A stretch of DNA of 33,134 bases from Sulfurovum sp. (lineage in GTDB: Bacteria; Campylobacterota; Campylobacteria; Campylobacterales; Sulfurovaceae), in contig JALUXB010000076.1 in NCBI GenBank assembly GCA_027019175.1, forward strand, positions 1 through 33,134. The letters run 5' to 3'. Made by a program: the position numbers and the translations under genes. The stretch's first letter is position 1, and every line of letters begins with the position of its first letter. Positions 1,986 through 32,967 of this stretch are shown piece after piece. The notes under the pieces were generated by a model that was not told the origin of the DNA, searched no databases, and was given only the letters and a program-made list of their open reading frames with translations.

Positions 1986-4288
<2,303 letters not shown>

Positions 4289-28451: not shown

Positions 28452-29381
28452 CTAAAAAACCTCCCAAACCAACCTGTTACGCTTGTTTTTATAAACGCTT
28501 TCCGGCAATTCTAATCGTAAGTGCGGTTTGTATATGGTGTTGTACTCCTGATAGAGGCTGAGCACTTTGGAGTGCTCGAACTCCAGTGAGGTTTTGGTGC
28601 AGTGTTTTTGGCAGGTTTTGGCGGGGAAGTAGGTCTGCTTGTCGTTGTAGATGCCGGCGATGTCGCAGGCTCTGGAGTGGGAGATGGTGCTGTTTGGGTA
28701 GTAGATGTCGGCATAGAAGAGCGGTTTTTTGTTCAAAAAGGACATATCGTAGGGTTTGTTCTCTATGCTGACTCTCGATACACCCATACTTTTGTAAAAC
28801 TCCCTTACGAAATCTATCTCGAACTCAAGGTGGGTGGTGAGCTTTTTTTGGTTTGCAAGCTGTTTGGAGCTGACCTCAAGCGGCTCTTTTGCGTCTAAAA
28901 AGGCATTTTTTATCGTTTTGGTGAAGTTGACGCCCAGTATCACTTTGAAGTCCTCTTTGACAAGTTGGAGCATACCGAAGTCGTTGACTACCACCTCTTT
29001 GACTTCCAGCCGTTTTAGCTCCTCCAAAATCTCTTTAGCTTCCTTCATCTTATGCTCACCGATAGGGGGAAAGACAAAGACAAAGTTATGATGCGTGTCG
29101 TTGAAGTAGCTGTATGCTTTGGCGATGTCAAGTGGAGAAGGCAGAAGATGCTCACAGTAGCTGTTGCCAAAATAGACCCCTTTTATCACCTTTTTGAGCT
29201 CCCGCTCGTCGTAGAAGTAGTGCTGGTTGTTTTGTATCTCTTTGATGGCGTAGTAGTAGTGCTTGTACTTGGGGTGCATCGCGGGGCTTATGAGCGGTTC
29301 GAAGCGTGAAGCGTGTGCCTGTAGGAGTTCATCGAGGTTTTTGAGTGTATGGATGTCGTTGGCTTTGATGTAGAGTTTCAT
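28452..29381 (-). CDS. Peptidase U32-like protein resembling UbiV
   Basis: This 309-residue protein looks like a U32-family TIM-barrel protein. It has the strand-turn EVVVNDFGMLQLV and four cysteines, C76, C239, C257 and C261. The spacing of the last two (TCQKHC) matches the UbiV pattern, in which four Cys hold an Fe-S cluster. It is the second gene of an overlapping pair (ATGA) with another U32-like protein. UbiU/UbiV hydroxylate a ubiquinone precursor without oxygen in other proteobacteria. Campylobacterota use menaquinone, so the substrate here is unknown; a pathway assignment would be inference. Confidence 0.7.
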   Translation of the reverse strand: MKLYIKANDIHTLKNLDELLQAHASRFEPLISPAMHPKYKHYYYAIKEIQNNQHYFYDERELKKVIKGVYFGNSYCEHLLPSPLDIAKAYSYFNDTHHNFVFVFPPIGEHKMKEAKEILEELKRLEVKEVVVNDFGMLQLVKEDFKVILGVNFTKTIKNAFLDAKEPLEVSSKQLANQKKLTTHLEFEIDFVREFYKSMGVSRVSIENKPYDMSFLNKKPLFYADIYYPNSTISHSRACDIAGIYNDKQTYFPAKTCQKHCTKTSLEFEHSKVLSLYQEYNTIYKPHLRLELPESVYKNKRNRLVWEVF

Positions 29382-30328
29382 AGGTCGTACTGGCTCTCTT
29401 TGTAGTTGTAGGGTTCGCTCTCATCATGTAGCAGAAACTTCACAAACTCCCTTCCTCTTGAGGGGATTTTATAGGAGACGATATTGGGGTGTTTTTGGAA
29501 AATCTCTATGGTTTTGAGGATGGCGGTTTTGTTGAGCTTGTGAAATATCTTGTAGGGGTTGTCCTCTTTGTCAAATGTCTGATAGTTCTCGTTTGTAGAG
29601 ATAGTTTTGAGTTGTGCTGCTTTTTGCTCCTGAGTGAGTTTGGGGTTTTTGAGTGTGTGCTTGAAGTGTACATCGGCTTTTTCGATGCTCTTTTTTGAGT
29701 TGATGGCATAACCGCAGAGTGAACCAAACTCCAGCGAATCGTACCCATGTTCACTGAAACAAAACGCTTCACTGAAGCGGCAGTTATCTCCAAACAAAAA
29801 CGCCTCGAACTGCACCTCTTTGTAGTGGGAGACGATACTTTCCAACTCCTCTATCGTGATATCTCTTGGCAAAATGATTTTCACAGGCGAGAACTGCAAA
29901 AAGAACGCCACCGCCGCTTTGGAGTAGAAGCCAAAGAGGTTGGAGAGCACTATCTTGTCATACCCAAGTGAGTGCAGATAGAGCAGTGTAGGCATATTGG
30001 CGACGATCATCCCATCAACCTTGTCGGCAAAGAGTGTGAAGTTGCGTTTTATCTCCTCCAAGATAATCCCATTGGTAAAAAAGGCGTTGAGTGCCAGATA
30101 GAGCGTGCCGCCATGCTGTTGGATTTTGGTGATGTCTTGTGTGATTTTTTCGATGGAGGAGTACTGCTCTTTGAGTCGGTAGCGTCTGTTTGGGGAGATT
30201 TGGGTGGCGTAGCTCTCTATGTAGCGCTTGTCGATATAGCCGAAGTAAAACTGCCGAAACCCAAGTCGCAGCAGTTCGTCGATATCGTTTTGTTGGGAGA
30301 TGCCTATGATGCATTTGGAAAAGTTCAT
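29378..30328 (-). CDS. Peptidase U32-like protein resembling UbiU
   Basis: This 316-residue protein has U32-like features: a barrel start with GFRQFYFGYID, YLALNAFF, VDGMIVANMPTLLYL, KIVLSNLFGFYS, and a Cys-rich region with C183, C190 and C205 (DNCRFSEAFCFSEHG, then GSLCGYAINSKKS). The C183/C190 spacing is like that of UbiU. It overlaps the UbiV-like gene, so the two probably form a heterodimer. Function unknown beyond the family. Its TGA stop is embedded in an ATGA overlap, evidence that TGA is a stop in this genome. Confidence 0.72.
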   Translation of the reverse strand: MNFSKCIIGISQQNDIDELLRLGFRQFYFGYIDKRYIESYATQISPNRRYRLKEQYSSIEKITQDITKIQQHGGTLYLALNAFFTNGIILEEIKRNFTLFADKVDGMIVANMPTLLYLHSLGYDKIVLSNLFGFYSKAAVAFFLQFSPVKIILPRDITIEELESIVSHYKEVQFEAFLFGDNCRFSEAFCFSEHGYDSLEFGSLCGYAINSKKSIEKADVHFKHTLKNPKLTQEQKAAQLKTISTNENYQTFDKEDNPYKIFHKLNKTAILKTIEIFQKHPNIVSYKIPSRGREFVKFLLHDESEPYNYKESQYDL

Positions 30329-30636: not shown

Positions 30637-30729
30637 TGGCGAGAGCAATGGGAATCGAACCCATACCGAGGATTGGAAGTCCTCCATCCAGTCTTAGAGG
30701 CTGGTGTGCTACCATTACACTATGCTCTC
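30637..30729 (-). tRNA. Unusual 93-nt tRNA with two anticodon-like arms, CUA and UCC
   Basis: Read on the minus strand, the gene has an acceptor GAGAGCA/TGCTCTC, discriminator G, encoded CCA, a D arm GTGT/GCAC with loop AATGGTA, and a T arm ATGGG/CCCAT. Between D and T arms are two hairpins. The first (CCAG/CTGG, next pair C-A mismatched) has the 7-base loop CTCTAAG, giving anticodon CUA with U33. The second (GAGGA/TCCTC) has loop CTTCCAA, the glycine UCC loop. Read as a long-variable-arm tRNA it would decode UAG; read with the second arm as the anticodon arm it is tRNA-Gly-like with a 20-base extra hairpin. G73 and a long variable region would suit serine; the charged amino acid is unknown. 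Confidence 0.75.
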
Positions 30730-30736
30730 GTTTACT

Positions 30737-30765
30737 CTCGTTCCAACGCTTACCGCGGGAACGAG
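30737..30765. repeat. Imperfect palindrome next to the left tRNA
   Basis: An 8-bp stem CTCGTTCC/GGAACGAG with a 13-base middle, seven bases upstream of the tRNA on the minus strand. It has the form of a small dispersed intergenic palindrome and is unlike the GGTGCGT repeats. Confidence 0.5.
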
Positions 30766-30836
30766 GGAAGAATTCGTAAAATTTGTAGCTACTTAAATTA
30801 GAAGTGAATTGCACTTATGATTTGAATGGGCGGTTT

Positions 30837-30865
30837 AAAAAAAGGCAGATATAAGATCTGCCTTT
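30837..30865 (-). terminator. Rho-independent terminator of the recoded gene
   Basis: On the minus strand a 10-bp perfect stem AAAGGCAGAT/ATCTGCCTTT with a 5-base loop is followed by a run of seven T. It lies 31 bases after the TAA at 30896, so the TGA-recoded gene has its own end. Confidence 0.9.
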
Positions 30866-30895: not shown

Positions 30896-30982
30896 TTATC
30901 TTTCCCAAATATCTCACCACTTTATAGTCACTCTTTGTCAAGGATATTTTTCACTTTCAACAACTACATCAGGACTATTCTA
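30896..30982 (-). other. In-frame continuation after the TAG of the recoded gene
   Basis: After the in-frame TAG (30980-30982, codon 279) the same frame continues 27 codons to TAA at 30896-30898. It includes two more TGA codons (293 and 301) that again read well as Gly (SEKYPGQRVTIKWGD). The segment looks like a normal beta-strand-rich protein end just before the terminator. Either TAG is also read through, for which a CUA tRNA is encoded nearby, or the TAG truncates a formerly longer protein. Confidence 0.6.
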
Positions 30983-31816
30983 ATATCAGCTTACTGATTT
31001 GCTTTCATCTCATTCACTTCAAGAAAATGTAATAGTTACTACTCATTGAACTTCATCATCATCTACCCAAGCTTTATAAGTATTATTACCTAAATCATCT
31101 ATTGCTCCAATATGACTACCAGCTGTTACATCTATATGATCAAGAACTGGTGCTTGCTCATTTACTTTGATAGTAATATGATTTGACTCTGTTACTGCTC
31201 CATCATCATCTGTTGCTTTTGCATAATAAGTATATGTTCAAGCTGTATTTTCTGTAATACTTATACTTACTCATGTTCAAACTTTATTACCATTTCAATC
31301 AAACCACTCTATTTTTGTAACTGTACCATCTGGATCTGATGCATTTGCTGTTAAAGTAACAGTTTCTCATTCTGTTACTGTTGTTTTATCTGCTGAAACT
31401 GATATAGTTGGAGCTTGGTTTGGGGTTACATTGGCTGTGCGTATAGAAATTGCTTCTATCTTTGTCTCCTCTTCTTGAAGTTCAGGATTCTCTCCTTTGA
31501 CTACAACCTGTACATTATACGTTCTGCCAGCAGATAGATTCTCTATCGTTTTGTTGGCATCAATAAAGGTACTATCAGTTGGAACTGCTATACTAAGTAT
31601 TTGTCAATCGACAATAAGTTCTATTTCTTTCAGTCAATCCTGATCCTCAGCTTTAACATTGACGATTGCTTGGTTTTCAAAAACTTGCCCTACTTGATTG
31701 GCAGATACAGTCAATACATGATTGATTGTTTCAATGGGTGTCCTCTGTCATTTACACCCCACCATCAGATAAGATGCTATAATCGCTGAAAGCGCAATGG
31801 AGGTTCACTTTTTCAT
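30980..31816 (-). CDS. TGA-to-glycine recoded lipoprotein with PKD/Ig-like domains
   Basis: From ATG 31816 this frame runs 278 codons to TAG, with 13 in-frame TGA at codons 4, 23, 61, 71, 150, 174, 180, 182, 193, 258, 266, 269 and 277. Read as Gly the protein is coherent: a lipoprotein signal MKKGTSIALSAI with lipobox LMVGC (Cys21), an Ig-like region with DQDGLKEIELIVDG (about 37-125), a PKD-like domain (about 130-215: TEGETVTLTANASDPDG, EWFDGNGNKVGTG, TAGTYTYYAKATDDDGA), then a beta-rich end. Ten further glycines use GGN codons. TGG encodes Trp at its sites, so TGA=Trp does not fit. In the standard code it would give a 3-residue peptide. UGA=Gly is known from Absconditabacteria and Gracilibacteria. 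Possible role: cell-surface adhesion, by domain type only. Confidence 0.88.
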
Positions 31817-31833
31817 TTTTTCCCTTTTTCTAC

Positions 31834-31877
31834 GCCACACCTCCAAAAGAGAGCTCTCTCTTCTTTGAATGTGTGGC
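31834..31877 (-). promoter_or_regulatory. Long hairpin just upstream of the recoded gene start
   Basis: GCCACAC at 31834-31840 pairs with GTGTGGC at 31871-31877, and the interior contains a GAGAGCTCTC self-complementary core. On the minus-strand mRNA it ends 17 bases before the ATG and contains GGAGG in its 3' arm. A purine run AGGG lies directly before the ATG. It could affect translation or be a recombination site; function not shown. Confidence 0.5.
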
Positions 31878-32202
31878 AGAACAACCACAAAACCTTTTCT
31901 TCAGAGCATAACCGAACACTCAAGGGCATGGAAGACAAAGTGTCGTGTACCGAAGCTACAACGCTCTGTATGCTTACTTACCGGGTATCCCTCCCGGCCC
32001 TCGTCACACACAGCGCATAGCCACAACACCCTTTTCTTTTAAACCACCCCTTTTTGGTTCAAGCGACACCCTTTTGCCTAGCGGTAAACCCAAGCTACTC
32101 GGGCTCACTTGTTATGGTGAGTACTTGTTTGGTGTCTGTCAAATATCTAATATGCATATTATAAGGGATGTTTTCTTAAAAAAGTATGAAAGCAATCTAT
32201 GC
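31878..32202. other. Non-coding, hairpin-rich region between recoded gene and right tRNA
   Basis: No convincing gene is visible on either strand with the standard code or with TGA as Gly. Hairpins include CCGGG/CCCGG at 31981-31997 and CTCAC/GTGAG at 32104-32121. On the minus strand a TATAAT (32163-32158) and a TTGACA (32142-32137) occur but are not spaced as a promoter. I could not match the region to RNase P RNA, tmRNA, 6S or SRP RNA. An 86-codon plus-strand frame at 31945-32205 has no ribosome binding site or recognisable family. Confidence 0.5.
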
Positions 32203-32220: not shown

Positions 32221-32313
32221 GCGGGCGTGGCATAATGGCTGTGCGCTGGGCTTCAGACCCAGTATTGGACTTCCAATCCAGTTACGCGGGTTCGATTCCC
32301 GTCGCCCGCTCCA
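32221..32313 (+). tRNA. Unusual 93-nt glycine-type tRNA with two anticodon-like arms, UCA and UCC
   Basis: Acceptor GCGGGCG/CGCCCGC with U73 and encoded CCA matches bacterial glycine tRNA identity (G1-C72, C2-G71, G3-C70, U73). D arm GCAT/GTGC with loop AATGGCT, T arm GCGGG/CCCGT. Between D and T arms are two 5-bp hairpins: CTGGG/CCCAG with loop CTTCAGA (anticodon UCA, U33 present) and TTGGA/TCCAG with loop CTTCCAA (anticodon UCC). Leaving out the first hairpin with its TA gives a canonical 74-nt tRNA-Gly(UCC). With the first as anticodon arm it would read UGA, as the neighbouring recoded gene needs. A selenocysteine tRNA is unlikely: 7/5 acceptor/T branch, U73 and a normal D loop. Confidence 0.8.
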
Positions 32314-32328
32314 ATACAAGAGAAATTT

Positions 32329-32967
32329 ATGGCAAAACACTTCTACCATATCCCGCTACAAAATGCCCTACAGTTTGTCAAACAGCACAAAACCTGGCTC
32401 AACAGAGTAGCACAACACCCCAAAGAGCGCACCTACTACGCTCTGCTTGGCAAAAGCTACTACAACCTACAGATAGAAGAATTTATCCACTTTTTCAAGA
32501 TAGACAAAAACATCGATGCAACACTCAAAAGTGTAGAGTATTTCCATAGTATTGGTTTCATTGGCACGATGCACAAAGTGCTCAACTTTTCACAATTTCA
32601 GGTAGATAAAGACAAAGAGATGAAAAAGAGCTTTTTCTACGCTTTTTGCTACCGCTATGCCAAAGAGGAGGCAGAGGGCTTTGAGCTCTTTATACAAAAG
32701 ACACTGCTATACTACCACACAAGCTTCAACACCGAGTCCAACATATCAATAAACCATCAAGATATCTGCCATACTTTGGCAAAGAGCAGACATATCACCA
32801 TCAAAGAGTCCTTTGGAGAGGAGGGAAAAGGGGTCTTTTTCAAACTCTTTTTAGATGGTGCCATCACCATAGAGGAGAAAGGTAAACGCATTAAGACACT
32901 TCGTAAAAAGGCATACAAACGGCTGCTCTATGTTATACTGGAGCGTGGGGAGTCACATAGGGTGTGA
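32329..32967 (+). CDS. Hypothetical protein, 212 residues, 15 bases after the unusual tRNA
   Basis: The protein starts MAKHFYHIPLQNALQFVK and is rich in Lys, Phe, Tyr and His with no membrane segment or signal peptide. It looks mostly helical, with a basic C-terminal region (KRIKTLRKKAYKRLL). AGAG lies eight bases before the ATG. Glycines use GGN codons and the gene ends with TGA, so it follows the standard code, unlike the recoded gene. It may be co-transcribed with the tRNA. I do not recognise the family. Confidence 0.75.
   Translation: MAKHFYHIPLQNALQFVKQHKTWLNRVAQHPKERTYYALLGKSYYNLQIEEFIHFFKIDKNIDATLKSVEYFHSIGFIGTMHKVLNFSQFQVDKDKEMKKSFFYAFCYRYAKEEAEGFELFIQKTLLYYHTSFNTESNISINHQDICHTLAKSRHITIKESFGEEGKGVFFKLFLDGAITIEEKGKRIKTLRKKAYKRLLYVILERGESHRV

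Follow-up and report, generated by a model that had tools for sequence, protein, structure and literature searches.

How can a gene interrupted by 15 in-frame TGA codons persist in a bacterium that ends other genes with TGA? The question is raised by a reading frame in the window analysed here, a stretch of 33,134 nucleotides from Sulfurovum sp. (Campylobacterota; contig JALUXB010000076.1). The frame, on the minus strand (30896..31816, 306 codons), is assigned to a recoded surface lipoprotein gene on the basis of the frame itself, Pfam matches, and base composition. It starts with ATG at 31816 and runs through 13 TGA codons, a TAG (30982-30980), and two further TGA codons to a TAA (30896-30898), coordinates and counts that had been given exactly in an earlier note on this DNA. 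Before the terminal TAA, 0 TAA, 1 TAG, and 15 TGA are seen, where the gene's own positional base composition predicts about 7.5, 1.9, and 3.1, respectively. The remaining reading frames over the gene are full of stops.

With TGA translated as glycine, the product begins as a signal peptide/lipoprotein (MKK-G-...LMVGCK lipobox) and contains an Ig-like PKD/Big_7 domain recognized by Pfam; a protein search with this product across the genome contigs gave no match. Codon 4 is TGA in several recoded genes (MKK-, VKY-, or MKY-TGA; L057, L003, L078, and the window at 31805-31807), and in these UGA is met almost at the start of translation.

The Pfam scores discriminate between glycine and the alternatives. 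The Big_7 domain of the window gene reaches 44.8 bits with TGA read as Gly, and at most 38.7 bits with nine other amino acids (27.4 for Trp). The second of two recoded genes in Sulfurovaceae BB14 has its TGAs on the Gly positions of a PF16403 domain (VGDTYTELGATATDA...TVGTYEV), which scores 54.7 bits with Gly versus at most 44.3 otherwise; the values for the DUF4214 domain of the same gene are 71.8 and at most 68.6 bits. For the recoded gene of genome G019, PF16403 scores 31.8 bits with Gly versus at most 21.1 otherwise, and a Big_9 match appears only with TGA as Gly. Glycine is the best of ten amino acids in these three unrelated genes, and a reading as Trp is ruled out by the scores.

Homologous genes point in the same direction. 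As residue tallies at TGA are noisy over remote gene pairs, the four closest pairs were used; the codon opposite TGA in the partner gene is GGN in 9 of 18 cases, in an alignment that scores TGA as Gly. For the G433/G522 pair, GGN stands opposite TGA at four of six positions, also with TGA scored neutrally. GGA and TGA codons coexist within recoded genes, and some TGAs of the G257 gene fall in coiled-coil stretches, an unusual place for glycine. Internal TAA codons are absent from the full recoded genes, with about 7-32 expected and 4-21 TGA observed per gene; the open frame of G256 and some additional genes were assessed separately from this count. Across the read-through frames, dN/dS is about 0.35-0.65, which indicates translation and selection of the frames. 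At the level of sequence, these comparisons show UGA to be a glycine codon in the recoded genes that are linked to the leader described below.

The window gene is one part of a cassette. Counting genomes that show only a pair of UCA tRNA and a downstream gene (ORF212), only the tRNA, or only a cut leader, this cassette turns up in at least 15 genomes of Campylobacterota. DNA upstream of the window gene matches further genomes of this phylum, with a TGA gene directly behind it in the readable cases. The recoded genes carry several to about 20 in-frame TGAs at glycine sites, among them those of G019 (360 codons, 18 TGA), G256 (5 TGA), G399 (1090 codons, 21 TGA and 2 TAG), and the two BB14 cassettes (12 and 20 TGA). 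TGA-containing genes also lie behind leaders in G154, Sulfurovum HLG, G257, G433, G517, and G522, and two such genes are present in G492. Sulfurospirillum MAG-6, G475, and G514 are examples with the tRNA-ORF212 pair or the tRNA only, and G157 has a cut leader only.

G399 is a closed genome, a single contig of 3.27 Mb, and contains all parts of the window locus in the same orientation and order: U32b, U32a, tRNA-CUA, recoded gene, leader, tRNA-UCA, and ORF212. An assembly chimera is therefore excluded by an independent genome with the same seven-part arrangement. Among 175 genomes of the family, the leader is found in 9, the UCA tRNA in 10, and both in 7 (Fisher p 5e-9, kinship ignored). The tRNA was not detected in G019 and G492 despite the presence of leader and TGA gene; both are draft assemblies. 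Every recoded gene found sits behind the leader, save one short fragment in L003. This LamG-like C-terminal fragment (2850-2987, minus strand) has four TGAs at glycine sites and ends at a REP-like palindrome beside the G019 recoded gene.

Two leader-plus-gene cassettes occur in each of BB14 (L083 8465-9715 and 11907-13376) and G492 (L113/L120). The BB14 genes have a common N-terminus and differing C-termini, which suggests, as judged from their sequences, a variable surface protein. In G154 the cassette is cut by a RAYT-type transposase.

Upstream of the gene, on the plus strand, ARAGORN locates a tRNA with a long variable arm and the anticodon UCA, which reads UGA (32221-32313), and which we propose to be a tRNA-Gly(UCA). 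The earlier note had overlooked that the gene is flanked by tRNA genes reading UGA and UAG, one on each side. The UCA tRNA has 7/5 acceptor/T arms and a glycine-type acceptor end (G1-C72, C2-G71, U73). These positions and the anticodon are invariant in all 12 UCA tRNAs, while acceptor pairs 4-6 covary; in four of them (L082, L083, L084, L085) the acceptor stem contains the mismatch U3-C70. Among the genome's own other tRNAs, tRNA-Gly(UCC) is the best match. Two traits of tRNA-Gly are missing, the short variable loop and C35-C36, of which C35 is kept and position 36 is A. We infer that GlyRS would charge this long-arm tRNA with its A36. Gene order and co-occurrence show, at the genomic level, a dedicated UCA tRNA linked to recoded genes. 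In the genome scan, the tRNA lies upstream of ORF212 in six of six full loci, and ORF212 follows it directly at every locus where both are readable.

The gene is preceded by a conserved structured 5' leader RNA (31817..32130, minus strand), supported by covariation, with a core at 31942-32046 (model R3) that contains a hairpin with the invariant loop AGGGAUA. The consensus of six leaders has 43 pairs, with 94.5% of cells paired. Compensatory changes are observed in 22 of the 43 pairs, whereas 9.4 are expected from shuffling (none of 500 shuffles reaches 22) and 2-6 are found when the structure is slid; the structure was derived from this alignment, which had not itself been adjusted to it. The window leader folds with a z-score of -4.5 and has no match among Rfam families. 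A pairing of the heptaloop with the loop of the tRNA variable arm was judged by eye and rejected as too weak.

ORF212 (32329..32967, plus strand) is predicted to combine an RNase III-like helical domain with a C-terminal dsRBD. An AlphaFold2 model built from seven sequences (pLDDT 87) displays a helical domain followed by an alpha-beta-beta-beta-alpha unit. The model matches RNase III endonuclease domains with VIA Z-scores of 11-13 over about 125 residues at 3 Å, and dsRBDs with a Z-score of 8.6; mL44 is also matched. At the sequence level, hhalign, hmmsearch, and a PDB sequence search gave nothing of use on a relation to RNase III. The RNase III-like part has no invariant acidic residue, and E164, the one such column in the alignment, belongs to the dsRBD; a metal site of the RNase III type is therefore unlikely.

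Outside the cassette, UGA still acts as a stop. The RF2 gene prfB scores above the cut-off in six of six genomes tested, and 6 of 25 neighbouring genes in the window end with TGA. SelB is absent above the cut-off from the window's genome (G000) and from G019, G154, and G257, and present in G399 and G256. With RF2 present and SelB absent in the window's genome, the locus is therefore not a selenocysteine locus and UGA remains a stop. The claim of the earlier note that TGA stands at glycine sites inside a standard-code genome is supported. We consider it highly probable that this is a recoding cassette native to Campylobacterota, in which a leader-linked surface gene uses UGA as an additional glycine codon by means of a dedicated tRNA-Gly(UCA), with UGA kept as a stop in the remainder of the genome. 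UGA would be read by the adjacent tRNA with its class II-like long variable arm, with RF2-based termination elsewhere, and UAG would serve as a rarer sense codon in some loci.

How the two meanings could be kept apart is a matter on which we are more tentative. The structured leader and ORF212 may make UGA decoding message-specific, somewhat like SECIS and its binding factor; we infer this, with some uncertainty, because TGA still functions as a stop in these cells and because leader, tRNA, and ORF212 travel together. It looks as if a single message had a genetic code to itself. In the fullest version, which we put forward as a possibility short of an even chance, a leader bound by the dsRBD protein would license a special aminoacyl-tRNA complex or the ribosome. 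This one message would then be read with UGA as Gly throughout, and a second tRNA would give UAG or CGG the meaning of another amino acid, while all other messages would end at UGA or UAG.

A simple opal suppressor is a serious competitor to such specificity, although we would not bet on it either. The tRNA-Gly(UCA) would then read UGA everywhere at low efficiency, the surface gene would have adapted to it, and leader and ORF212 would be ordinary regulation. The normal 7/5 arms suit EF-Tu, and for two of the six TGA-ended window genes another stop follows in frame within three codons. However, backup stops at 26, 30, and 114 codons are found for others, and with TGA stops so common in the host general read-through would be costly. 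The strong co-occurrence of leader and tRNA also speaks against a simple suppressor, as does the position of the recoded genes, which apart from the L003 fragment all lie behind the leader.

The earlier note had offered two origins for the gene, an unrecognised recoding system or transfer from a code-25 lineage; the former is supported and the latter is not. A gene acquired from Absconditabacteria or Gracilibacteria (or joined by chimera) and dead in its new host would account for the AT-rich body and for several genes in which TGA outnumbers every other Gly codon, and the TGA=Gly LamG-like fragment adjoining the G019 gene could be taken in the same sense. Such an origin is nevertheless very improbable: a dedicated UCA tRNA and a conserved leader lie in situ, and leader, tRNA, and ORF212 are conserved together as a cassette across many Campylobacterota genomes, one of them closed, with diverged homologues under purifying selection. 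The BB14 DUF4214/Ig proteins, moreover, mix TGA and GGN.

That the UCA tRNA is tRNA-Sec and the gene encodes a selenoprotein has hardly any probability left. ARAGORN does name the tRNA SeC, and a long variable arm with a UCA anticodon is what this name calls for. We rejected it on the 7/5 arms, in place of the 13-bp acceptor/T arm of tRNA-Sec, on U73 in all 12 tRNAs instead of the G73 needed by SerRS, and on the lack of SelB in the window's genome and the three others named above; 15-20 TGAs per gene at glycine sites are equally incompatible with a selenoprotein. Only the single base between GGA and TGA speaks for a pseudogene formed by G-to-T decay of glycine codons or for a systematic error of sequencing; both are practically negligible in view of the same pattern in independent genomes, GGA beside TGA, no TAA, dN/dS below 1, and the adjacent UCA tRNA.

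The native cassette shares features with several known systems. Code 25 of Absconditabacteria (SR1) and Gracilibacteria (BD1-5) likewise reads UGA as Gly by a tRNA-Gly(UCA), but it is genome-wide, and RF2 is lost in these lineages; the cassette serves one gene family in hosts with RF2 and TGA stops, through a tRNA with a long variable arm. With selenocysteine insertion (tRNA-Sec, SECIS, SelB) it has in common the restriction to selected messages, a dedicated long-arm UCA tRNA, a structured mRNA element, and the retention of RF2. It differs in placing glycine at many sites per gene, in carrying the element in the 5' leader, in an RNase III/dsRBD-like partner protein, and, in the window's genome, in the lack of SelB. 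Recoded phages are similar in that a linked suppressor tRNA gives a stop codon a new meaning in some of their genes. The cassette, however, is chromosomal and uses UGA as Gly instead of UGA as Trp or UAG as Gln; relatives of ORF212 were not found in plasmids and phages, and viral contigs searched for ORF212, leader, and tRNA patterns gave no match. ORF212 resembles mL44 and other RNase III-fold dsRBD proteins by predicted structure, but it lacks detectable sequence similarity to them, has only 212 residues, and lies behind a tRNA gene. The selC* tRNA-Cys and the allo-tRNAs resemble tRNA-Sec without being tRNA-Sec, and some of them carry stop anticodons (PMC7609411). Their acceptor stems are longer and their identities different (PMC7609411), in contrast to the 7/5 arms, the glycine-type end, and the linked recoded gene and leader of the cassette.

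In the open-access PMC literature we found no description of UGA as Gly in Campylobacterota, nor is one given in the review and surveys that we read. The UGA reassignments known to us are genome-wide, insert a non-standard residue (Sec), or are phage-borne. If our reading is correct, the cassette is a standing chromosomal code by which a single message assigns UGA to an ordinary amino acid, and it brings along a tRNA, a leader RNA, and an RNA-binding protein of its own; it would show that one codon can have two meanings that stay separate in one cell over evolutionary time. The tolerance of ambiguous codons en route to reassignment would become directly testable, and the cassette could supply a natural, SelB-independent tool for message-restricted recoding of stop codons. 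Such genes are missed by standard gene finders and their tRNAs mislabelled SeC or Pyl by tRNA finders; the expectation that standard annotation would overlook the window gene was a fair one, and ARAGORN gives these two names to its flanking tRNAs.

The second flanking tRNA (30637-30729, minus strand; ARAGORN) also has a long variable arm, with the anticodon CUA, which reads UAG, and G73. Both window tRNAs are 93 nucleotides long, and their variable arms have GGACTTCCAATCC in common. Orthologues of the CUA tRNA have the anticodon CUA in G399 and CCG in G256. Two genes for U32-like proteins lie next to it on the minus strand: U32a (29378..30328), peptidase-U32-like and related to UbiU/TrhP, whose stop codon is a genuine TGA that overlaps the start of the next gene, and the second, diverged U32b (28452..29381). 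The second tRNA with the U32 pair beside it is found only at the window, G399, and G256 loci. The pair would serve tRNA-CUA, and a tRNA-modifying role is conceivable.

Of the trusted recoded genes, only the two that adjoin tRNA-CUA contain in-frame TAG (one in the window, two in G399), and those without this tRNA have none; two TAGs of G492b were left out, being located past the breakdown of the frame. Trusted genes thus offer only three in-frame TAGs, and as readings of UAG, Ser, Trp, Tyr, Gln, and Gly score alike. The tRNA-CUA would insert one particular amino acid at UAG, with Ser and Trp as candidates; the long arm and G73 would suit Ser. In G256 (L055, G256:C41), the CCG tRNA lies at 964-1056 and the recoded gene (198-731) has CGG where its HLG homologue has TGG. 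CGG may thus be reassigned in this gene, perhaps to Trp. Between the second tRNA and the recoded gene, the window has a REP-like palindrome and a short repeat (30733-30845), the latter recurring on other contigs of the genome.
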